Below, piece by piece: positions 26,072-34,996 of a stretch of 34,996 bases of DNA (positions within the stretch are counted from its first letter, which is position 1; every line of letters begins with the position of its first letter). The notes under the pieces were generated by a model that was not told the DNA's origin, ran no database searches, and was given only the letters and a program-made list of their open reading frames with translations. Source of the DNA: a virus; the IMG/VR virus record IMGVR_UViG_3300009085_000059, positions 1-34,996 of that record; one strand, 5' to 3'. The position numbers were made by a program, and so were the translations under genes.

Positions 26072-26842
26072 TTATTTGTTTAGTGTTGTTGATATTGGAA
26101 CTCCTAATAATAGATAATCATTGATGGCCTTTTCACCACGCTCGACACGGTCGTAAAGCCAGTCAATGTAAGAAGTATCACGGTATATCTCAGTGAAAGC
26201 GACATCTTTGGGGCTTCGCCTGCGTGGGTCAAATGATCCGAAGAGGCAAAAATCAGCATCCTCATTATTCATCAAGTGCGCCTGCCATTGTGGATAATAT
26301 TTGTGTTTGGCATCAATGCCTCCCGTCAATATCATCTGCACATTTTTTTCGTGTATCAGCGGATCAGCAGGGCATTTAATTTCAGTGACAAACTTTTTCT
26401 TTTGCGCTGTCAACACGCCAACTCCGTCAACAGACCCCCCGAAATATGGTATTTTTGGATTGATTGAAAAACTGGTTTCTGATATTTTCACACCAAATAT
26501 TTCGCTTATCCGTTCACGTGCAACGGGTTCGTTTTTTTCGCCCCATTGGCACTGCCAAAACTCCTTGTGCATAATTGAGTCCAAATACATCTCAATACCC
26601 TCATCAGTCATTGACCGTTCAACGGCCAATTTTGCAAGGTAATTGATCGCAGTTACGCCAAATTCAGCCCCTTTAGTCCCTGCGGTGACGTAATCAATCA
26701 TCCCTGAGGCAGTAAATTTTCCCAGCCGCGACTGGAACCATTCGCGGCTCTTTTGTTCAGCCTCAACGCGCTCAACTGTTTTTTCAGATGGTTTTGCGGT
26801 GGCTGCGAGGTCGGTAAGATAATCATCAAATAACTCGCTCAT
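26072..26842 (-). CDS. Lambda-type exonuclease (YqaJ-like recombinase)
   Basis: A 256-residue 5'-3' exonuclease of the YqaJ/lambda Exo family, which resects double-strand ends to feed an annealing protein. Motifs: SREWFQSRLGKFTAS (residues 32-46), the helix with GEKNEPVARE (101-110, Glu105), GGSVDG (Asp139) and EIKCP (Glu154, Lys156), the D-ExK active site. It overlaps the annealing protein gene by 4 bases, a pairing known from Red-like systems. Confidence 0.92.
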   Translation of the reverse strand: MSELFDDYLTDLAATAKPSEKTVERVEAEQKSREWFQSRLGKFTASGMIDYVTAGTKGAEFGVTAINYLAKLAVERSMTDEGIEMYLDSIMHKEFWQCQWGEKNEPVARERISEIFGVKISETSFSINPKIPYFGGSVDGVGVLTAQKKKFVTEIKCPADPLIHEKNVQMILTGGIDAKHKYYPQWQAHLMNNEDADFCLFGSFDPRRRSPKDVAFTEIYRDTSYIDWLYDRVERGEKAINDYLLLGVPISTTLNK

Positions 26843-27465
26843 GATAGCATTTCTTTGAGTTCTTTCAACATCTGCATAGCACGCTCATTTGTTGTGAACA
26901 ACTCTTTATTTAGCCTATGCAGGTCGTATAATAGGCCAACACTTGACCGGCTTTTGTTGCAAAAATTATTCAGGGCATCAACGTCGTATTTATTGATCGA
27001 TACCTTGCCGTCCTCAGATTTGTAATCGCTACCTGAAACAACCATTTTTACCGATTGCATTTGGTCAAGATGACGTCCAATGCCCCAGTTTTTTGAAGCA
27101 CGGGTAAATGCATTTGATGCAGTTGTTTTGTCGTAATGTGATTTGCGCTCAATGTCAGATGATTTTTCCCTAACGGTTTTGTTCATCTCCATTGCGCCGC
27201 CTGCGTTTTGCTTAAACACCCAATCAGATTCAACATTGAGTCCAATTGTGCAAAACAAAATGCCTCCCAGATTGGCATATTCGCAGCTCCATCCGTCAAC
27301 TTCGCACACGTGATCCAAAATCTCTTTACATTGCCCATGCTCATAATAAGGGATAAAGATTGCCACGCCTGCATTTACAGTTTGAGGCTTCCAACATGGT
27401 TCGATCCCTAAGCTAGCGTGAAAGCTTGGATCAGACAACTTGCCTAAATCTTTTTTTTCCATCAT
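26839..27465 (-). CDS. Rad52/Sak-like single-strand annealing protein
   Basis: A 208-residue protein whose core matches the Rad52-like phage annealases: a segment ILDHVCEVDGWSCEYANLGG (49-68) forming the beta-hairpin region, and KTTASNAFTRASKNWGIGRHL-type helix (113-133), a hallmark of the family. It would coat resected ends and anneal them. The exonuclease gene overlaps it. The leader is AAAAACTACT directly before ATGATG. Confidence 0.82.
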   Translation of the reverse strand: MMEKKDLGKLSDPSFHASLGIEPCWKPQTVNAGVAIFIPYYEHGQCKEILDHVCEVDGWSCEYANLGGILFCTIGLNVESDWVFKQNAGGAMEMNKTVREKSSDIERKSHYDKTTASNAFTRASKNWGIGRHLDQMQSVKMVVSGSDYKSEDGKVSINKYDVDALNNFCNKSRSSVGLLYDLHRLNKELFTTNERAMQMLKELKEMLS

Positions 27466-27509
27466 AGTAGTTTTTAACGCCCGTTAGACCGATAGCGCAG
27501 CCGTGTATT

Positions 27510-27689
27510 TTAACAATCGTAATGCCTTGCAACAAATGCGGCAAACATCATCAGCACACCTAACACGGCTTGCCATGGGTTGACACCGGATGCCAGAAAG
27601 CAAACGATTGAGATAATGAAGAATAATACTGATAAATGCGTCATCGCGTATTTGACGCACATTATTAAAAAGTCGAGTAGTTTGATCAT
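27510..27689 (-). CDS. Small two-segment membrane protein, 59 residues
   Basis: A 59-residue protein, MIKLLDFLIM... to ...HYDC, with hydrophobic parts around residues 17-33 (THLSVLFFIISIVCFLA) and 40-53 (QAVLGVLMMFAAFV). Its ATG overlaps the TGA of the upstream gene (ATGA), and the leader AAAAACTACAACAATG before it is read in the upstream gene as its last codons. The next gene starts 44 bases on. Function unknown. Confidence 0.65.
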   Translation of the reverse strand: MIKLLDFLIMCVKYAMTHLSVLFFIISIVCFLASGVNPWQAVLGVLMMFAAFVARHYDC

Positions 27690-28081
27690 TGTTGTAGTTT
27701 TTCGAGGTTTGCAGCTAATAAAATGACATCATCCTTGTGGTAATGAACTAATCTCGCATGTACTTGCTTAGTTCTTACTTTTGCTTTACTTGCCAAAATA
27801 TAGAACTTGTACGCGCTAATTTTCAACACATTCAATACCTGAGCAAGTGTAAGCCATGTATTTTGGCTGTCTAATTCCGTTTTTATCTCGGTAATTACCG
27901 AGCTTGATGATTTAATTTCAAGCGGGCTTCTTAGTTGGTCAAATTGTGATTTTGCTTTGAAATAAAGGTCTTTAATGTCTTGCCCTGTCATGTCGATAGC
28001 CTCTGATTTGCCGTCTAAAAAGCCGGTTATTTCAAAGATGTGATCTTCAAATAGATTTGCTTTTTTGATTTTTACTTCCAT
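27686..28081 (-). CDS. HTH-containing early protein of unknown function
   Basis: A 131-residue protein. N-terminal part (FEITGFLDGKSEAIDMTGQD) and a helical middle; residues 76-125 look like a DNA-binding helix-turn-helix of the HTH_17/excisionase type (WLTLAQVLNVLKISAYKFYI, then VHYHKDDVILLA). It may be a regulator or a DNA-replication accessory. Leader AAAACTACAACAATGG. Confidence 0.55.
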   Translation of the reverse strand: MEVKIKKANLFEDHIFEITGFLDGKSEAIDMTGQDIKDLYFKAKSQFDQLRSPLEIKSSSSVITEIKTELDSQNTWLTLAQVLNVLKISAYKFYILASKAKVRTKQVHARLVHYHKDDVILLAANLEKLQQ

Positions 28082-28146
28082 TGTTGTAGTTTTAAGTTAT
28101 ATTTGTGTTGTAGGTTTACCTAGTGTATGCCACCTTCAAAGGTTTT

Positions 28147-28171
28147 GGGGGCTGAACCCGAATCAGCCCCC
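28147..28171. terminator. GC-rich hairpin within the recombination operon leader
   Basis: GGGGGCTGA (28147-28155) pairs with TCAGCCCCC (28163-28171), 9 bp, loop ACCCGAA. A T-rich tail (GTATTTTTATG) follows only in the rightward direction; leftward it is followed by AAAACC. It could end stray rightward transcripts or stabilise leftward mRNA. The 96-base gap (28082-28177) also has TAGGTTTACCTA at about 28113-28124, an inverted-repeat operator candidate. Confidence 0.55.
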
Positions 28172-28177
28172 GTATTT

Positions 28178-28369
28178 TTATGCTAAAATTAAGTTTGACA
28201 TTTTGCAAACCATTTGATCCATTATAGGGCTGCTTAGTGAGTCTTTTGTTAATTTGTGCCACATGCTTTCATCTGTTGTGCAAGTGGCCACAATGCCCCC
28301 GTGAATAGATGTAATGGTGTGGATTTTATTTCCTGTGTTTACGTGTTTAACTTTGCTTCCGATTTCCAT
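28178..28369 (-). CDS. Small SH3-like protein of unknown function
   Basis: A 63-residue protein beginning MEIGSKVKHVNTGNKIHTIT, the pattern of a small SH3/KOW-like beta barrel (G-x-V-x-H...), with an end rich in Met. First gene of the leftward recombination operon, about 30 bases after its promoter. Leader AAAAACTACAACAAATGG. Confidence 0.5.
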   Translation of the reverse strand: MEIGSKVKHVNTGNKIHTITSIHGGIVATCTTDESMWHKLTKDSLSSPIMDQMVCKMSNLILA

Positions 28370-28400
28370 TTGTTGTAGTTTTTAGTGTTTTTCTATACTT

Positions 28401-28445
28401 CAAAGATACACCAAACAATAACACCAAAGAGTTAACTAATGTTAA
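28401..28445 (-). promoter_or_regulatory. Early promoter P1 with paired GTTAA operator
   Basis: Reading leftward, TTTG (28428-28425), a 16-base spacer and TATCTTTG (28408-28401), an exact Bacteroidota -33/-7 pair; a 'GTGTATCTTT' context and TATAGAAA follow. Upstream, GTTAA occurs on the plus strand at 28431-28435 and 28441-28445, one helical turn apart. The gene start is about 31 bases downstream. Confidence 0.75.
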
Positions 28446-28467
28446 AAGATTTGGGTTTGGTGTTAAA

Positions 28468-28567
28468 AATATCCCAAACACCGCCCTCGTCTAAAGCGAT
28501 GGATCAACCTTTGTTTAACGTCGGTGTCGAGCGTTCCCGATTACTAGATATTGGCATTTGGGATATT
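28468..28567. repeat. Spaced 11-bp inverted repeat in an early intergenic region
   Basis: AATATCCCAAA (28468-28478) and TTTGGGATATT (28557-28567) are exact reverse complements. A further TTTGGG at 28450-28455 can pair with CCCAAA 28473-28478. The stretch 28370-28690 between two leftward units otherwise holds promoter P1, a terminator and two short rightward frames (see below). Confidence 0.7.
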
Positions 28568-28592
28568 AAAAAAAGGGGTGAAAAGCACCCCT
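28568..28592 (-). terminator. Rho-independent terminator, leftward
   Basis: Leftward, AGGGGTG (28592-28586) pairs with CACCCCT (28580-28574), 7 bp, loop CTTTT, followed by seven T's (28574-28568 on the plus strand A run). It ends the transcript of the upstream small-protein operon before promoter P1. Confidence 0.8.
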
Positions 28593-28607
28593 CCTAAACC
28601 TACTACA

Positions 28608-28679
28608 ATGAAGAAATCCAAAAAAATCACGCATATAGACACGCGCTTTAATCTTATCAAATGTAGTAAATGTTTTTGA
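28608..28679 (+). CDS. Possible rightward 23-residue peptide with shared early leader
   Basis: MKKSKKITHIDTRFNLIKCSKCF, a Lys-rich peptide ending in Cys-x-x-Cys. It is preceded by AAACCTACTACAATG, the same leader as the leftward early genes, but on the other strand. No rightward promoter is visible, so translation is uncertain. Confidence 0.3.
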   Translation: MKKSKKITHIDTRFNLIKCSKCF

Positions 28680-28690
28680 CACGTGCAACT

Positions 28691-28894
28691 TTAAAGTTCG
28701 TTAATTACACCATCACCAATAATTAAGAGCCTGTCTTCATCAAAATACTGTTTTTCTGGTAGTTTACCGTCTTTGTCAATAACAGGTTGAACCCCGTACT
28801 GGTCACTTCCTGTTAAATAGATGTGTTTTGATTCTGCGATTCCATAGAAGCCAGACACTTTGTCCTTAACCTCTCGTCCTAAAATTTTTTCCAT
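28691..28894 (-). CDS. Small early protein of unknown function
   Basis: A 67-residue protein with GREVKDKVSGFYGIAESKHI followed by QYGVQPVIDKDGKLPE and a closing FDEDRLLIIGDGVI. The layout resembles a common small phage protein seen in many genomes, with no known function that I can name. Ends the leftward unit before its terminator. Confidence 0.65.
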   Translation of the reverse strand: MEKILGREVKDKVSGFYGIAESKHIYLTGSDQYGVQPVIDKDGKLPEKQYFDEDRLLIIGDGVINEL

Positions 28895-28936
28895 TGCATT
28901 TACTGGGTTTTACAAAGCCGCCCAAGGCGTATATTA

Positions 28937-29134
28937 TCAATCTTCAAAATAAAAGTTGCCTTCTTTATTTGGTTTGATTGGGCGAGTTGTAAAGCAGTGG
29001 TTAACGCCTGACAACTGGCTGATCTCGTCACGCAATAACTCGATACCTGTTATTTCAGCTTCTGATTCTTCAGCTTCAAATATGATCGACGGGTGTGATG
29101 ATATCGTGGTGCATTTTGTAATATAGTGGTTCAT
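28937..29134 (-). CDS. Small early protein of unknown function
   Basis: A 65-residue acidic protein (EAEESEAEITGIELLRDEIS). ATG 29134 is chosen because it overlaps (ATGA) the TGA of the preceding membrane-protein frame; longer starts at 29146 and 29167 would run into that frame. No family recognised. Confidence 0.55.
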   Translation of the reverse strand: MNHYITKCTTISSHPSIIFEAEESEAEITGIELLRDEISQLSGVNHCFTTRPIKPNKEGNFYFED

Positions 29135-29272
29135 CGTGCGTCGCATTGATGGTAAAGGGCTTCCCAATTATGGGCGGCGGCTTCGGCTGCTTTGGCTCTA
29201 AGAACTAATGAGACAAAGCAAGTAATTATTATGACGCAAAAAATAGCGGTAATAACAATGTTTTTTTTTCAT
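29131..29272 (-). pseudogene. Membrane peptide gene split by a nine-A run (46 codons if one A is removed)
   Basis: ATG 29272 overlaps the stop of the upstream gene (ATGA), and the frame ending at TGA 29131-29133 overlaps the next ATG (ATGA). The two parts are out of frame by one base at AAAAAAAAA (29261-29269 on the plus strand T run). With eight A's the product would be a 46-residue single-pass membrane protein, MKKNIVITAIFC... then VSLVLRAKAAEAAAHNWEAL and ...HQCDAR. As read, the frame stops after 24 residues. Sequencing error, true mutation or slippage are all possible. Confidence 0.6.
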
Positions 29273-29700
29273 GATTTCAAATTTTTAGTTGTGTAAAATT
29301 CAATTCCTATGTGATGAGGTATGCACTGGCAGATGAATCCGTATATTTCCGCAAACACCTGCACATCAATAGCGTGCAACTTGTCACCGTTTTCGAGCAT
29401 AAACTCATTGACATACATAGCGTCTTCGGTGGCGCGTGGGTCGAGTGTGCGGGCTACAAGGTCGCCCATAATAAGACCTAACAACCTAATGTGTGAGTTG
29501 ATGGTGTCTTTTATCCCATCTCTTAATCTATTGCGCAATGGTTCGGTAGAGATCGGAAATTTAACCGATCGATCTAATCTGCCAAGCAATTGATAATAAT
29601 TTAATCTGATTGGTGTTGCAGTTGGAACTAAGGCAAATTTTCCGTCAAAAGGTACACCGTCTAAGTTTTTAAGGGGACAAGCGTCTGAATTGTTTTTCAT
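29269..29700 (-). CDS. Early protein of unknown function, 143 residues
   Basis: A 143-residue mostly helical protein: LRDGIKDTINSHIRLLGLIM, then LDPRATEDAMYVNEFMLENG and IYGFICQCIPHHIGIEFYTT. No catalytic motif is visible. It sits 5 bases after the 66-residue gene and overlaps the split membrane-peptide gene. Function unknown. Confidence 0.6.
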   Translation of the reverse strand: MKNNSDACPLKNLDGVPFDGKFALVPTATPIRLNYYQLLGRLDRSVKFPISTEPLRNRLRDGIKDTINSHIRLLGLIMGDLVARTLDPRATEDAMYVNEFMLENGDKLHAIDVQVFAEIYGFICQCIPHHIGIEFYTTKNLKS

Positions 29701-29705
29701 GGCAG

Positions 29706-29906
29706 TTAGTCTATATATGCGTTAATTTCCATGATCCAACCGCGCGAATCTGTATCGTCGGCAAACCATTGTTGAATGGTTTTGTTTTCGGGGTCAAGAG
29801 CGCTAATGTAGTACCCGCGCTCATCTTCCAATTTGTAAATATCATTCATAATCATTGACCCGACAGGGGCAAAATTGAAAATCTGGATAAATCGTTCTTT
29901 TGTCAT
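29706..29906 (-). CDS. Small early protein of unknown function, 66 residues
   Basis: A 66-residue acidic protein: FAPVGSMIMNDIYKLEDERG then NKTIQQWFADDTDSRGW. Clear leader AAAACCTACTACAATG. No family recognised. Confidence 0.6.
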   Translation of the reverse strand: MTKERFIQIFNFAPVGSMIMNDIYKLEDERGYYISALDPENKTIQQWFADDTDSRGWIMEINAYID

Positions 29907-29967
29907 TGTAGTAGGTTTTGATAGTTATACCTCAAAAAAGGGGGTTAGGTTGCGTTTAAAGTGTTAA

Positions 29968-30234
29968 TTATTGTGAAATGATTTGGCCTTCTCCAAGAAC
30001 CACTTTTCTATTGTTTGGTAAAAATTTTACCAGTACTGATTTAGCTTCGCAGTTGTCGTATCGCTTTAGAAAAACGGCTTCTTTAATTCCCCTCGTGGTT
30101 GACACGTGGATAATATCCCCAGCCCTCAAACCATTCAAATACTTCTTTCTCTTCTTCAAATAATTCCTTTTCCCAATCCAAAGCCCAATCCCTAGTATTG
30201 CGCAAAATGTCAAAATAGTTACAAATGTTGTCAT
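29968..30234 (-). CDS. Membrane-anchored protein with SH3-like domain
   Basis: An 88-residue protein with an N-terminal membrane segment (TFVTILTFCAILGIGLWIGK), a basic stop-transfer (RNYLKKRKKYL) and a small beta domain (GDIIHVSTTRGIKEAVFLKR) like KOW/SH3 barrels. Its start overlaps the VRR-NUC stop (ATGA). Function unknown. Confidence 0.6.
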   Translation of the reverse strand: MTTFVTILTFCAILGIGLWIGKRNYLKKRKKYLNGLRAGDIIHVSTTRGIKEAVFLKRYDNCEAKSVLVKFLPNNRKVVLGEGQIISQ

Positions 30235-30641
30235 GATTCTAAGATTTTATCAATTATTGATTTAAACATTTCAAAGTCTTCATTTATCTTGTAATAAATT
30301 GCCCCGTGTGCTTCCATCTTTAAACGCCATTTTTTTTGTGCTGTTGAAAGGGAGCCTGTTACGGTCTTCATTTCAAGGCAATAAAACTGGTTTTTCCAAA
30401 ACATTTGCAAGTCACTAACGCCTGCAATTACTCCTAACGCCTTGTTTTTAGCACCTTCGCGCTTGTTTTTTGAGTTGTTATTTATTGCCCAAATATGATC
30501 TTCAGTTTCCGGCCTTTCATTATGTGCCCAGAATATACATTTGGCTTGAAAAGAAGCCTCGGCATATACACGGGGCTTCTTTTCTCTTATTGCTTGCTGT
30601 TGAGCGGGGGTGATCGTTACTATAGCTGTTTGGCGTTGCAT
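30231..30641 (-). CDS. VRR-NUC domain nuclease
   Basis: A 136-residue nuclease-like protein. The VRR-NUC core is clear: GVSDL (74-78), a hydrophobic strand, then LEMK (Glu90, Lys92), followed by TGSLSTAQKKWRLKMEAHGA and IYYKI, as in G-x-P/S-D...ExK-LS-x-x-Q proteins. Such single-domain enzymes in phages act on branched or ended DNA in recombination and packaging; target here unknown. Start overlaps the preceding stop by one base (TAATG). Confidence 0.85.
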   Translation of the reverse strand: MQRQTAIVTITPAQQQAIREKKPRVYAEASFQAKCIFWAHNERPETEDHIWAINNNSKNKREGAKNKALGVIAGVSDLQMFWKNQFYCLEMKTVTGSLSTAQKKWRLKMEAHGAIYYKINEDFEMFKSIIDKILES

Positions 30642-30906: not shown

Positions 30907-30941
30907 TAACTATATCCTTCCGGATTAGCTGGATATAGTTA
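30907..30941. terminator. Hairpin downstream of the cassette-like block
   Basis: TAACTATATCC (30907-30917) pairs with GGATATAGTTA (30931-30941), 11 bp with a 13-base loop. It could terminate leftward transcription from the accessory genes before P2, though no T run follows; it may also be part of a degenerate recombination site (GTTAAC at 30905-30910, GTTAGCT at 30958-30964). Confidence 0.5.
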
Positions 30942-30957
30942 TTGATGTTATATTGGT

Positions 30958-30966
30958 GTTAGCTGC
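30958..30966 (-). repeat. Cassette-like end E1 (GTTAGCTGC)
   Basis: The stop of the HAD gene lies within GCAGCTAAC (leftward), similar to the end of the other accessory genes. A partner copy at the other side of this gene was not found, so this end is a weak case. Confidence 0.35.
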
Positions 30967-31525
30967 AACCGCAAGAAAGCACCTCGATAGCTTTGTGCGT
31001 TTGTTCGAGAGTTAAACCTTCAAATGAATCACAGCAGATAAAATTGTCTTTATGTTCTAAAAGCATATCGGAATCATCATCTAAAATTACATAGTTCCAG
31101 TCTTTGCCTAATTTCTTTCTATTCCAATCTTTGCCGTTATTTGAATGAATATTGGTGTCAATCCATTGTTTAATCTCAACGCCTCGTGGAATTGATAAAT
31201 GAATACCTTTTTCAATATAATGGTAAGCTCGAATAGTTATACCTACAATTTCATCACAGAATTTAAAACCATGTTCTTTCATGTGTTCAATTGTGCTTTC
31301 CAAAGTATGTTTTCGCCAGCTACTACTAATCACTATTTTTGCACCTGTTTTTTCAATTATCATTCCGAGTAAATCTTGTTTTTCAGGTGTCAATCCCCAC
31401 ATACCATCTTCTAAAGTATTAGGTGTAGCAATTACTCCGTCAATATCGAGAAAGATAAAACGGCAGCAGCTAACACCGTGTATAAAACATGGTGGGGTTT
31501 CTGCGTTATTTAAAGTTTCGTTCAT
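30959..31525 (-). CDS. HAD-like phosphatase (HAD_SAK_1-like, RNA repair related)
   Basis: A 188-residue protein of the HAD superfamily. Motif I FLDIDGVIAT (Asp nucleophile, about 29-38), motif II ISSSWR (about 66-71), and a C-terminal VILDDDSD (acidic motif, about 146-153). This compact set fits the HAD domain of 'Swiss Army Knife' RNA-repair proteins, often found alone in phages, where it may remove terminal phosphates. Accessory gene in the cassette-like block; A/T-rich. Residues 1-25 are Cys-rich and may be start-choice noise. Confidence 0.72.
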   Translation of the reverse strand: MNETLNNAETPPCFIHGVSCCRFIFLDIDGVIATPNTLEDGMWGLTPEKQDLLGMIIEKTGAKIVISSSWRKHTLESTIEHMKEHGFKFCDEIVGITIRAYHYIEKGIHLSIPRGVEIKQWIDTNIHSNNGKDWNRKKLGKDWNYVILDDDSDMLLEHKDNFICCDSFEGLTLEQTHKAIEVLSCGCS

Positions 31526-31569
31526 TCTATTAAGTTATTTGTATTTTGATAGTTAGATGGTTTCTATCC

Positions 31570-31599
31570 CACCACGTTTCATACACAACACGTTGTGCG
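31570..31599 (-). repeat. Cassette-like site E2, half-site (GTTGTGCG end)
   Basis: GTTGTGCGTA (31592-31601) is the reverse complement of TACGCACAAC at 31868-31877, so the ends around the gene between them match. The left half-arm (ACACAACACGTTGTG and CATACAC-like part) resembles E3, but the second half of the palindrome is missing. Confidence 0.5.
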
Positions 31600-31877
31600 T
31601 AATTAAACAGAATCGCCTAACGTCAGAAAACACTTACCATACATTTCGTCGCTGGACTCAACAAAACGATTATTCCTGAAATCTTTGAAATCCCATCCAT
31701 CACCTGAATCTGCATCTTTTAAATCCAAAGTCTCAAATTCAACCGCTCCATAACTTTCATAGTTACCAGCTTTTTGTTGAAATCCGACCTCGATTATAGT
31801 TTCTTCGGGAAACCTATCCAGCCACTTTTTAAATTCCTTTATTGTTGCCATTTTGATTAAAAATAACTACGCACAAC
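31592..31877 (-). mobile_element. Putative gene cassette beta (one small gene)
   Basis: A 286-bp unit with inverted ends GTTGTGCGTA (31592) and TACGCACAAC (31868-31877), carrying the 82-residue gene. The end at 31870-31877 is the outer part of site E3, while the remainder of E3 belongs to the next unit, exactly how integron cassettes share attC sites. Confidence 0.55.
31603..31851 (-). CDS. Cassette gene, acidic protein of unknown function
   Basis: An 82-residue protein: FKKWLDRFPEETIIEVGFQQ, then EFETLDLKDAD and DFKDFRNNRFVESSDEMYGK. The closing segment (FRNNRF...YGKCFLTLG) resembles small proteins common in Bacteroidota genomes, with no known function. Sits inside a unit with matched ends. 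It stops 3 bases before the GTTGTGCG end, as cassette genes do. Confidence 0.65.
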   Translation of the reverse strand: MATIKEFKKWLDRFPEETIIEVGFQQKAGNYESYGAVEFETLDLKDADSGDGWDFKDFRNNRFVESSDEMYGKCFLTLGDSV

Positions 31878-31960
31878 ACAGTGTATAAGCCATGCGCAGA
31901 TAGTTTCGAGCCGTTTGAAAGGTAGTGCAATGCGCACGGCTCATACACGCATCGTTAGCC
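31870..31960 (-). repeat. attC-like palindromic site E3
   Basis: Outer ends CGCACAAC (31870-31877) and GTTAGCC (31954-31960). Inner arms GTGTATAAGCCATGCGCA (31881-31898) and TGCGCACGGCTCATACAC (31931-31948) pair at 16 of 18 positions. The 91-bp site is near the usual length of attC sites. The two outer ends do not match each other, but each matches the far end of its neighbouring gene's unit. Confidence 0.65.
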
Positions 31961-32472
31961 ACAATTTAAAGAACCCGAAAATCTGATGATATTTTCATTG
32001 TTTTCATCTCTTTCAATTGAATAAATATATCCTGATTCAACTAATTTTATAGCTTTGTTTTTCAATTCTAAATATTTTTCCTTTTCATCTTTTTTTATTT
32101 TTGCTTCCATTTCTATTTCAAAATCAGCATCCCAATTAAAGCCTTCAATATCTTTAATTAGAATATCCCATCCTTTTTCAGATAAACTTTTTAATTCAGA
32201 TACTTTTATTGCTTTGAATTTTAAATTCCAGTAGCAAGTATCTAAATATTTTATCCCTTTTTCTGCTTCTTTTAAGGTCTTAAAGGTATTTTCACTTAAC
32301 ACTGCATTTCTCGCACCTCTTCCACATCCTGTTATGCTCACTGAAAAAATAGAACTATCATCTACATCGTAAACGACTTTCTTTTCATCTCCATCAACAA
32401 CTATAATATATTTGTCTAAAATGGATTCTAATTTTATTTTTGTTTTCATAATAATTAAAAACTGTGGCTAAC
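31954..32472 (-). mobile_element. Putative gene cassette alpha (one gene)
   Basis: A 519-bp unit with a perfect 10-bp inverted end pair, GTTAGCCACA (31954-31963) and TGTGGCTAAC (32463-32472), carrying the 164-residue gene. The gene stop falls inside GGCTAAC. Confidence 0.6.
31955..32449 (-). CDS. Cassette gene, Lys-rich protein of unknown function
   Basis: A 164-residue protein: KIKLESILDKYIIVVDGDEK, a Cys/Gly segment (VSITGCGRGARNAVL), a Trp-containing middle (KGWDILIKDIEGFNWDADFE) and a charged helix (EMEAKIKKDEKEKYLELKNK). Distinctly A/T-rich relative to the phage's structural genes. No family recognised. The gene is bounded by cassette-like ends on both sides. Confidence 0.65.
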   Translation of the reverse strand: MKTKIKLESILDKYIIVVDGDEKKVVYDVDDSSIFSVSITGCGRGARNAVLSENTFKTLKEAEKGIKYLDTCYWNLKFKAIKVSELKSLSEKGWDILIKDIEGFNWDADFEIEMEAKIKKDEKEKYLELKNKAIKLVESGYIYSIERDENNENIIRFSGSLNCG

Positions 32473-32557
32473 ACGGTATATATGCCATGCGCCAATTAGT
32501 GCCGTGCTATTATTTAAGTTTATCGTGGGCGCACGTCACATATACCCAAAGTTAGCC
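32466..32557 (-). repeat. attC-like palindromic site E4
   Basis: Ends GGCTAAC (32466-32472) and GTTAGCC (32551-32557) are inverted copies. Arms GGTATATATGCCATGCGCC (about 32475-32493) and GGGCGCACGTCACATATACC (about 32527-32546) pair imperfectly. The left part shares GCCATGCGC and TATA blocks with E3, so both sites are related. The helicase stop is 7 bases beyond the site. Confidence 0.65.
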
Positions 32558-32563
32558 GTAACG

Positions 32564-34996
32564 TTAAAATGCCCTCCCATCATCCTCGACTATCACCGCA
32601 TTAACCCCACTTGAAAACTCGCACAATTTACCGGCCGAACCGCATTTAGGATTAAATAACCAACCGTTGTAATCAGCGTAATTTTTGAGCATGATAGTGA
32701 ATTTATTAGCGGCCATCCATCGCGCGGCGGCTTCGTTTTCGGCTTGCAAGTGGGCTTTAAATGACTGGTAAAGCGTTGATTTGATATAGCGATTATCCAC
32801 CGTTATTGCCTCTTCCGCCCACTCAATAAACTCGATTCCCACCTGGGCGCGTAGCTTGTTGAGTTTCAATGTCACGTATTGAGGGCGTATTAATTTCCCC
32901 AAAAGAAATTGCTTCAAACACAATACCATGAAGTTATCAAATCTGAACCATTCGGCATCCTCCCATCCTTCAAATGGCAGCCTTCCAAATTCGTCGATAA
33001 TGTTGTGTTTTGAGCCAAAATGCTTGTGAATCTCAATCTCAAATAATCGACGGTCAAAACTACAACTATTTTCTGCTTTAGGTGGATAATTTGACGAAAA
33101 AGCAAAGGACGGAATGTCTTTAAAAGGTATATATAATTCTGTAACCCCTTTTTTGTTGACCGGGAGTCCGGTTGTGAGTATTGAAAACATTTGAACAACA
33201 GGGAAGCCTTCGGCCAAATCATCAATTGCGACAACCTGCGTGTCATGTGATACCCTCTGCCATGGGAAGCCGCTTTTTAAATCCAATGATTTACCGTCAA
33301 TCCAAACCGTTTTTTTTATCTTTGAAACCATCATTATACCTAATGTCTTTCCGCTTCCCCCTGCCGGCTCAGTAGATGTCGTTTCGTCCAAAAATCCGAT
33401 CATCGGGCATTCGGTCGGGTTGCGATATCCGTGCATCAAGTAGCCTAACGCACTGACATACGCCGCCATCCGATCATCTTTGCCGTTCGAAACGATGTTC
33501 GCAAACCGGTAACTATCAGCCTTCTCAACCTCCTCATCACTCAACTGCTTAAAGTCTCTATCCAAAATCTGACTTTTCCAAATCATCCCGGCCATCTTCG
33601 CGAATGGTACCAGCTCGCAACCATTTGATGTGACTTTTAACGCCGTGTTGCGATAATATAGCCATCCGGTTTTGATGTCGTCCTTTAACCACTTAATCTC
33701 AATTACCTTCATGGTTAACTTTGACTTTTTGAATTTATCGGAGTCGTTGATCTTGTTGTAGATGTCTTTATCATCGATGTTGTCGATCACGTGTTTTAAA
33801 ACAAAATCACGAATCTGATCAAAACAGACCTCCTCAACCACGTTGTTTATAACACGGACAAAGATATATTCAAGCGGCACCGATTCATAACGGAAAAACC
33901 CGTATGACTCAAGAAATTCAGCAAGAGAGTAATGATCAATGTAAAATGATCCTCTATCACCCATGTACCAAAAATTTCGAGTGTCTTTACCCGCGACGGC
34001 CGGAACCTCAACCACTTTAGGTATTGGCTTGTCCTGCTTCCTTTTCGGCATGTTGAACTTTTCCGCAACCGCTTTGGCCGCTGCTGCGTAATCACCGTTA
34101 AACTCCAACCGTGTTAAAATATCAAACGGCTTATAAACATACCCATTGCCACTTTTTGCAGGACTGTCAGTAAAAGGATGTGCGTTTTCAGAGTAGTTGA
34201 AAAACACATTTTCAGCAACATAGCCAAATGTGGCCGATGGTGACCCGTCCGATTTACCTGGGCGTCTCCAGTTTTTTGATGTTAACTGAGTCCAACCGTG
34301 TTGTTTTAACAAGCGCTTCGCCTCTTCGATGCATCTGTCATTATAGATGTCACCGGGGCGTTCGTCGTCATTAATTTTGTCGTGTGATGATACGCGGGGC
34401 GCTGGGGTGATTATTTCGGCAGGGATGTCAAACGAGCGGGCGTAACCGATTAATATGTCGCGGTCTTTTGGCGGGATGGTGGGGATTTGAGTAAGGTCGC
34501 CTTGGATGAGAGTGTAGCCTTTAGTGGGGGCACAAACGAGCAACCCCCCATCAGCCTTGGTTTCGATTAGCGCGAATTGCAGGCACTTCTTTCCGTTTCG
34601 AGTCCTTACCTGCTCATCCTTACCATTAAAATGATAAAGCTCGTTTTTTTGCCCTTCGAGGGAAAAGCATTTTTCAGGGTCTGGAATCTCGTACCACTCA
34701 TAAGCCAATTTTCTGCTTCCATCAATTTTTTCGGAGCGATAGTAGATGTGATAACCTCCTGACTTCGTTGTCTCTATCGGACATGTGTAATTCTCCAAAA
34801 TTCTTGCAACATCTTCAAAGTTGGTGAACTCCTCAAATGCCTGTTGTGCATTACCCAAATGGTTGTCGAAATCAATGCCCTCCAAATTACCAGACACAGC
34901 ACCACCGATAATGCCTACCCCGTATGTCTCCTCATCCTTGTAATTGCGCCACAGTGCCACATCCGATGATGTTGGCATTTCATCCATGTATTTGCG
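32564..34996 (-). CDS. Primase-polymerase / SF3 helicase fusion, 5' end outside the window
   Basis: At least 810 residues; the frame is open to the window edge (RKYMDEM...), so the true start lies upstream and ATG 34987 is probably internal. N-terminal Prim-Pol domain: GIDFDN with Asp39/Asp41 (from Met 34987) and SGGYH with His80. A middle DNA-binding part follows (residues about 210-315). C-terminal SF3 helicase: Walker A GGSGKT (about 543-548), Walker B-like VVAIDD (about 583-588), sensor SSNYPP near 650. This replication protein starts DNA synthesis and unwinds the template. Last gene before the cassette-like block. Confidence 0.85.
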   Translation of the reverse strand, partial: RKYMDEMPTSSDVALWRNYKDEETYGVGIIGGAVSGNLEGIDFDNHLGNAQQAFEEFTNFEDVARILENYTCPIETTKSGGYHIYYRSEKIDGSRKLAYEWYEIPDPEKCFSLEGQKNELYHFNGKDEQVRTRNGKKCLQFALIETKADGGLLVCAPTKGYTLIQGDLTQIPTIPPKDRDILIGYARSFDIPAEIITPAPRVSSHDKINDDERPGDIYNDRCIEEAKRLLKQHGWTQLTSKNWRRPGKSDGSPSATFGYVAENVFFNYSENAHPFTDSPAKSGNGYVYKPFDILTRLEFNGDYAAAAKAVAEKFNMPKRKQDKPIPKVVEVPAVAGKDTRNFWYMGDRGSFYIDHYSLAEFLESYGFFRYESVPLEYIFVRVINNVVEEVCFDQIRDFVLKHVIDNIDDKDIYNKINDSDKFKKSKLTMKVIEIKWLKDDIKTGWLYYRNTALKVTSNGCELVPFAKMAGMIWKSQILDRDFKQLSDEEVEKADSYRFANIVSNGKDDRMAAYVSALGYLMHGYRNPTECPMIGFLDETTSTEPAGGSGKTLGIMMVSKIKKTVWIDGKSLDLKSGFPWQRVSHDTQVVAIDDLAEGFPVVQMFSILTTGLPVNKKGVTELYIPFKDIPSFAFSSNYPPKAENSCSFDRRLFEIEIHKHFGSKHNIIDEFGRLPFEGWEDAEWFRFDNFMVLCLKQFLLGKLIRPQYVTLKLNKLRAQVGIEFIEWAEEAITVDNRYIKSTLYQSFKAHLQAENEAAARWMAANKFTIMLKNYADYNGWLFNPKCGSAGKLCEFSSGVNAVIVEDDGRAF

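Follow-up and report, generated by a model that had tools for sequence, protein, structure and literature searches.

A Three-Cassette, Integron-Like Array in a Phage Genome and a Candidate Recombinase Encoded beside Related Arrays

Integrons, CALINs and Insertion-Less Recombinases

Classical integrons are arrays of one-gene units with matched AAC/GTT end boxes, in which each gene is followed by a site that folds into an imperfect hairpin, with an R stem, an L stem and a variable loop, while a platform site lies beside a tyrosine-recombinase gene and exchange takes place between G and TT. Clusters of at least two of these hairpin sites (attC) with no integrase nearby are known as CALINs. Both integrons and CALINs were reported in phage genomes by Qi et al. 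in 2023 (PMC9892861), the complete phage integrons using the classical integrase IntI; that study describes no other dedicated phage recombinase, no reversed gene orientation, no attI-like site of the kind presented below and no natural shuffling. Two years earlier, Smyshlyaev et al. (2021; PMC8138268) had described integron-like tyrosine recombinases in which the insertion typical of IntI is not conserved. No paper assigning cassette arrays to such insertion-less enzymes was found, and neither was a prior description of the system presented here (preprints and subscription journals lay outside the search). Phage integrons and CALINs were thus previously known, and what appears to be new is an IntI-independent array system with a recombinase, here called REC, of its own.

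The locus described below resembles the classical integron in its arrays of one-gene units with matched end boxes, in its hairpin sites and in the platform site that related arrays hold next to a tyrosine-recombinase gene, with exchange at the same G and TT bases, and it resembles the phage CALINs of Qi et al. in being a cassette array without IntI in a phage genome. The system works like an integron, yet it departs from the classical one on several defining points that concern its enzyme, its sites and the orientation of its genes.

The Cassette Array

The window, meaning the whole stretch of 34,996 nucleotides analysed (positions 1 to 34,996 of IMG/VR record IMGVR_UViG_3300009085_000059), contains an array of three cassettes that belongs to an integron-like recombination system. 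Read along the minus strand, on which all its elements lie, the order is the stop codon of a primase/helicase-like gene, site E4, a 164-aa gene, site E3, an 82-aa gene, site E2, a HAD gene and an attI-like sequence. The primase/helicase-like gene (32564..34987; phrog_28855, 5e-65; phrog_19930, 8e-23) flanks the array on its far side, with a stop codon that abuts E4, and runs off the contig end. Unit A (31955..32551) comprises E4 (32463..32560; R'' GGCTAAC, R' GTTAGCC) and the gene at 31955-32449, whose 164-aa product had no Pfam match above cut-off and no PHROG match. Unit B (31593..31954) comprises E3 (31868..31963; R'' GGCTAAC, R' GTTGTGC) and the gene at 31603-31851 (82 aa; phrog_14647, E 4e-6), and unit C (30959..31592) comprises E2 (31465..31601; R'' GCACAAC, R' GTTAGCT) and the gene at 30959-31525, which encodes a 188-aa HAD protein (HAD_SAK_2 in Pfam, 1.5e-19; phrog_1818 in PHROG, 3e-26). 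Neither the 164-aa gene nor the primase had a close relative among the viral contigs, tblastn of the two small cassette genes gave no matches and that of the HAD gene gave distant homologs only; an Rfam scan matched nothing. Positions 26072-30641 form an early-operon recombination cluster with a YqaJ/RecE-like exonuclease, an Erf-like annealing protein and a VRR-NUC protein.

A preliminary description of this DNA, made from the letters alone, had proposed mobile single-gene cassettes on the grounds that two genes lie between perfect inverted ends. Both pairs are present, namely GTTAGCCACA at 31954 with TGTGGCTAAC at 32463-32472 for unit A, and GTTGTGCGTA at 31592 with TACGCACAAC at 31868-31877 for unit B, each matching over 10 bp. 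E3 and E4 do have the blocks GCCATGCGC and TATA in common, and the mismatched outer ends of E3 are each identical to the far end of the adjacent unit, as had been claimed. The description stopped at two units, and missed E2 and the HAD unit, whose ends also match (GTTAGCTGC / GCAGCTAAC). Across the whole window, only 3 of 11,675 GTT/AAC pairs lying 150-900 bases apart match perfectly over 10 bp; two of these are the ends of units A and B, and the third stands isolated at 1446/1860. The window cores GTTAGCC, GTTGTGC and GTTAGCT depart from GTTRRRY, a misfit already pointed out for the first two, and the R boxes of the wider site family likewise differ from those of classical integrons in not strictly following this consensus.

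Folding of E3 and E4 as single strands had been suggested as a check. The sites do fold, always better on the gene-sense strand, yet the z-scores on that strand (-2.6, -1.8 and -1.9 for the three sites) are of modest significance, and the support for the window sites comes from comparison rather than from folding. The short hairpin E1 (30908..30940, no strand assigned) has a fold z-score of -2.6, overlaps the end of the attI-like site and is unmatched by the covariance model introduced below; it is a terminator-like hairpin and no cassette site.

A Site Family of Bacteroidota and Their Phages

Near-copies of E4 were recovered at full length and about 84-90% identity from four further contigs (L002, L003, L004 and L005), of which two are viral and two come from Bacteroidales MAGs, each copy lying between different genes and mostly carrying different end boxes, with L004 presenting an array of some ten one-gene units with matched ends. 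A DNA pattern for E4 gave only three viral matches, of which the one on L001 was dismissed for lying inside coding sequence, and blastn of E4 against INPHARED returned no match. A covariance model (R2), derived from 14 sites outside the window, matches E4 (73.5 bits, E 1.2e-14), E3 (60.1 bits, E 2e-11) and E2 (53.0 bits, E 1e-9), all on the minus, gene-sense strand. The covariance search that had been proposed found sites in Bacteroidota and in phages: in a sample of 395 genomes of the phylum to which the L004 MAG (titled Bacteroidales) belongs, 122 have them, and so do many phages.

The sites of this family present R and L stems, a variable loop and AAC/GTT boxes, with a core of typically 117 bases and a shorter class of about 77. 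In 88 sites of the chromosomal set, 94.7% of cells pair (65.1% when shuffled) and covariation reaches 0.688 (0.159 shuffled); for 150 phage sites, pairing stands at 96.4% (63.8% shuffled) and covariation at 0.753 (0.157 shuffled). Of 252 intervals, 156 have ends that agree at 6-7 of the 7 variable positions. Unlike classical attC, the window sites and most family members lack extrahelical bases in the L box, and they present instead a near-invariant G.U (in DNA, G.T) wobble pair, found in 84/88 chromosomal-set and 143/150 phage sites.

A second model, R1, describes attC sites linked to IntI. Its matches to the R2 family are weak and lie antisense to the phage genes; in the window, where three sites lie with no integrase nearby, it recognised E2 alone, with a low score (14.1 bits, + strand). 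The sites of Polaribacter phage Freya score weakly with R2 (29.9 bits, E 3e-4). R2-family sites are also present in phage P12002L (L009 32217-32287, 38029-38096, 38873-38942 and 39116-39251), which suggests, from sequence, that one of the CALINs of Qi et al. belongs to this family. The same genome has a palindrome at L009 39509-39716 with a small ORF within its loop and a weak R2 score (12.9 bits).

The Candidate Recombinase

The preliminary description left the enzyme as an unknown or host recombinase. No recombinase gene is present within the window, and a strong candidate now comes from related arrays, many of which adjoin a gene for the tyrosine recombinase REC. With the best few candidates per genome being scored in the site and enzyme searches, a profile of REC (A5) matched 121 of the 395 genomes, and R2 sites and REC were found together in 79 genomes where 37 were expected (Fisher p 6e-22, OR 10), a p value that is optimistic because the genomes are phylogenetically related. 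In this sample, 20 REC genes lie less than 5 kb from an R2 site. Among viral contigs the profile found 78 REC relatives; R2 sites accompany 47 of these loci, where all 150 sites share the strand of REC and 147 lie upstream of it, and many phages hold array, attI-like site and recombinase together. Co-occurrence, position and the natural junctions described further on make REC a strong candidate for the recombinase of these sites.

REC differs from the classical integrase. NCBIfam places it between XerA and IntI, with 217-237 bits to NF040815 and about 200, at most 203, bits to TIGR02249, whose cut-off is 265. Its KDR-to-HxxRH spacing of 58-65 aa, compared with 106 aa in IntI, indicates that the IntI-specific (alpha-I2) insertion is missing. 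Its best solved relatives are XerA proteins (PDB 5hxy and 4a8e; 196 and 195 bits), followed by IntI4 (PDB 2a3v; 180 bits in two stretches), which likens REC to the insertion-less recombinases of Smyshlyaev et al., with the difference that the REC-type enzymes considered here sit with integron-like arrays. The REC of Freya is a divergent one, scoring 146 bits to NF040815. In a tree from which long branches had been removed, and whose deeper order is uncertain, 34 of 36 viral enzymes formed one clade (100/96), separate from the IntI (99/99) and Xer (100/100) clades. The recombinases encoded on viral contigs L237 and L245 group with true IntI, on long branches. Many chromosomal REC proteins (for example L110 12258-13766 and L112 14441-15616) are lengthened at the N terminus, to 391-502 aa for the whole protein, by extensions with one or two repeats of a module of about 60 aa (VRWSS..NRWYIP); these are absent from the phage versions.

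The alternative that survives best is that the array is an ordinary CALIN, whose cassettes, with classical attC sites, were acquired from an integron of the host chromosome and are mobilised by the IntI of the host. CALINs have been published in phages, including Polaribacter phage P12002L, for which IntI1 acted in E. coli on one of the two sites assayed (PMC9892861); full-length classical IntI is common in the phylum (107 of 395 genomes, about 27%, several with two or three copies), and several sites outside the window match R1 at E < 0.05. Since P12002L carries R2 sites, one of which may be the site assayed, this positive IntI1 result is relevant here, and some sites of the family could be substrates of IntI. 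However, R2 sites co-occur with REC and not with IntI (27 genomes against 33 expected), the attC sites of IntI-linked arrays in the same phylum are of the classical kind, having extrahelical bases and other L boxes, the phage genes are reversed relative to the site, and in phages REC stands beside the array, so that the capture of a host CALIN is improbable. IntI was also dropped when considered as the enzyme of the family, R2 sites lacking co-occurrence with it and the top IntI loci being mostly without arrays, the others lying beside classical attC.

The attI-Like Platform Site

In the viral loci, the end box of the first unit matches the R' box of the last site and is followed by a conserved platform, AAC continuing directly into TATTATATRTA, 36-94 bases before the REC start. 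A second phage form, in the same range of distances from REC, has AAC followed by ACCCC..; in Freya, AAC is followed by ACCCCTATAACAACAATAAGTAT. The window array ends (30935..30960, minus strand) in a sequence of this kind, AAC followed by ACCAATATAACATCAATAACTAT at 30960-30935, which is identical to the Freya site at 22 of 26 bases and is the best of 1,493 AAC-anchored window positions compared with it. In a position-weight model of the attI-like site from all phages, the window site ranks second of 756 on its strand, which is only suggestive; the direct Freya match is much stronger. No recombinase gene follows the site, and this, together with the platform match, means that the platform was kept and the enzyme was not. 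The array in the window, on a contig that is itself a fragment, has either lost its enzyme or relies on one provided in trans; its own cassettes may be immobile today, or may still be mobilisable.

Natural Recombination in Relatives

Precise presence or absence of units at the predicted junctions, the comparison asked of related phages at the outset, is what the relatives display. Two contigs, L167 (93% identity over 90 bp) and L135 (89% over 63 bp), share the 3' end of the HAD unit, with homology that breaks off precisely at the AAC box (30958), after which these contigs have a cassette site where the window has its attI-like site. The L135 copy (740-860) is a remnant of the HAD cassette, reduced to its last 30 or so codons with the cassette site still attached. 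A site with 93% identity to E2 lies in L158 (9990-10102), where it has other neighbours. Related phages L207 and L208 have recombinase blocks 98.8% identical and distal flanks 99.4% identical, and four cassettes that L207 has in common with L208/L205 (97.7-100% identity) stand in permuted order, every junction of the reordered L207/L208 cassettes being at AAC.

The public genomes of Polaribacter phage Freya, which are Illumina assemblies (Freya_1, _2, _5, _6, _8 and _10: MT732463, 64, 67, 68, 70 and 72), are more telling still. Freya_1 equals Freya_10 over 43,978/43,978 bp except for one exact array excision of about 4.94 kb adjoining the recombinase, Freya_8 is Freya_10 minus exactly one 902-bp cassette, Freya_2 and Freya_5 have ends at other cassette boundaries, and Freya_6 has an additional cassette at the attI-like site. 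Cassette gaps aside, Freya_1, _2 and _8 match Freya_10 over the full length with 0-4 mismatches, and the gaps adjoin a gene annotated "integrase". The isolate paper (PMC8776804) mentions neither cassette variation nor integrons. The L207/L208 and Freya junctions fix the unit as the stretch that begins right after one AAC, with the site and then its downstream gene, and closes with the next AAC.

Phage mosaicism, with homologous recombination at conserved hairpins through a phage RecE/Erf-type annealing system, could be thought to produce such patterns, given that the window encodes YqaJ/RecE-like and Erf-like proteins and that near-identical E4-type sites occur in several phages. Yet the Freya junctions join unlike sites with few common bases around AAC, in most of the Freya genomes compared, the cassettes lost, and the one clearly gained, lie next to REC and the attI-like site, and the ends match within each unit and not between neighbours, all of which render mosaicism highly unlikely. 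The weakest reading, in which the palindromes terminate or attenuate transcription between phage operon genes and the matched ends are incidental, can appeal to hairpin folds between co-directional genes. As the principal explanation it is refuted, although the palindromes may affect transcription secondarily: E2-E4 have no T-runs, near-identical sites lie between unrelated genes, the AAC box marks the exact limit of homology, dozens of arrays obey the end-matching rule, and cassettes are exactly gained, lost and reordered between otherwise near-identical genomes.

Proposed Mechanism, Cargo and Significance

The interpretation that very probably applies, judging from sequence comparison, is that of a three-cassette integron-like array, built on sites found both in Bacteroidota and in phages of these bacteria and driven by REC wherever REC is present; it agrees with the original proposal of integron-like mobile cassettes of a non-classical system in a phage operon, to which every test that was run lent support. 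The sequences show that a unit consists of a hairpin-forming site followed by one small gene, that units join at the AAC of the first box of the site (between G and TT on the other strand), and that the array terminates at the attI-like sequence. In the proposed mechanism, REC would act at the AAC box, both between two sites and between a site and the attI-like sequence, and so would excise, reorder and insert units, outcomes that are seen in the genomes. Exchange probably takes place on one folded strand, as in integrons, and the choice of strand may be read from the G.T wobble that replaces the extrahelical bases of classical attC.

The cargo hints at a purpose. At least 11 of 75 phage cassette proteins match DNA methyltransferase families and one matches the Thoeris anti-defence Tad2 domain, most of them matching nothing, and this combination points to a likely role as a reshufflable bank of counter-defence and modification genes. 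A broader reading is favoured with rather less assurance: the system may constitute a second, IntI-independent integron lineage in Bacteroidota, with a phage branch that has its own recombinase clade, flipped genes, sites used as 5' leaders and start-codon donors, and active reshuffling of counter-defence genes during propagation. If true, integron-style shuffling would be possible without IntI or its signature insertion, phages would own such systems beyond borrowing host cassettes, insertion-less IntI/XerA-like recombinases, annotated only as "integrase", would gain a function, and the cargo would point to adaptive phage banks of counter-defence genes. Freya_1 to _10 offer a ready culture system for measuring cassette gain, loss and shuffling directly, and phage Leef and Cellulophaga phage Ingeline are further candidates.

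Gene Orientation and Start Codons

In classical integrons the gene has its site at the 3' end, an arrangement that holds in the chromosomal arrays and is reversed in phages: genes lie on the site-sense strand in 198 of 203 phage cases and in 1 of 44 chromosomal ones, the other 43 being antisense. As R1 sets the classical polarity on the antisense strand, it is the phage genes that are flipped, and, again in contrast to the classical integron, REC is co-directional with them. The single-gene cassettes first proposed are therefore retained with a changed layout, the phage unit being a site plus its downstream gene, the reverse of a classical cassette. The site is located at the 5' end of the phage gene and sometimes provides the start codon. 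This is the case of the HAD gene, which starts inside the E2 loop, with no in-frame ATG, GTG or TTG between the E2 R' box and the catalytic DxD motif. In the L158 copy of the E2 loop the start codon is also present, and the frame it opens closes shortly past the junction.
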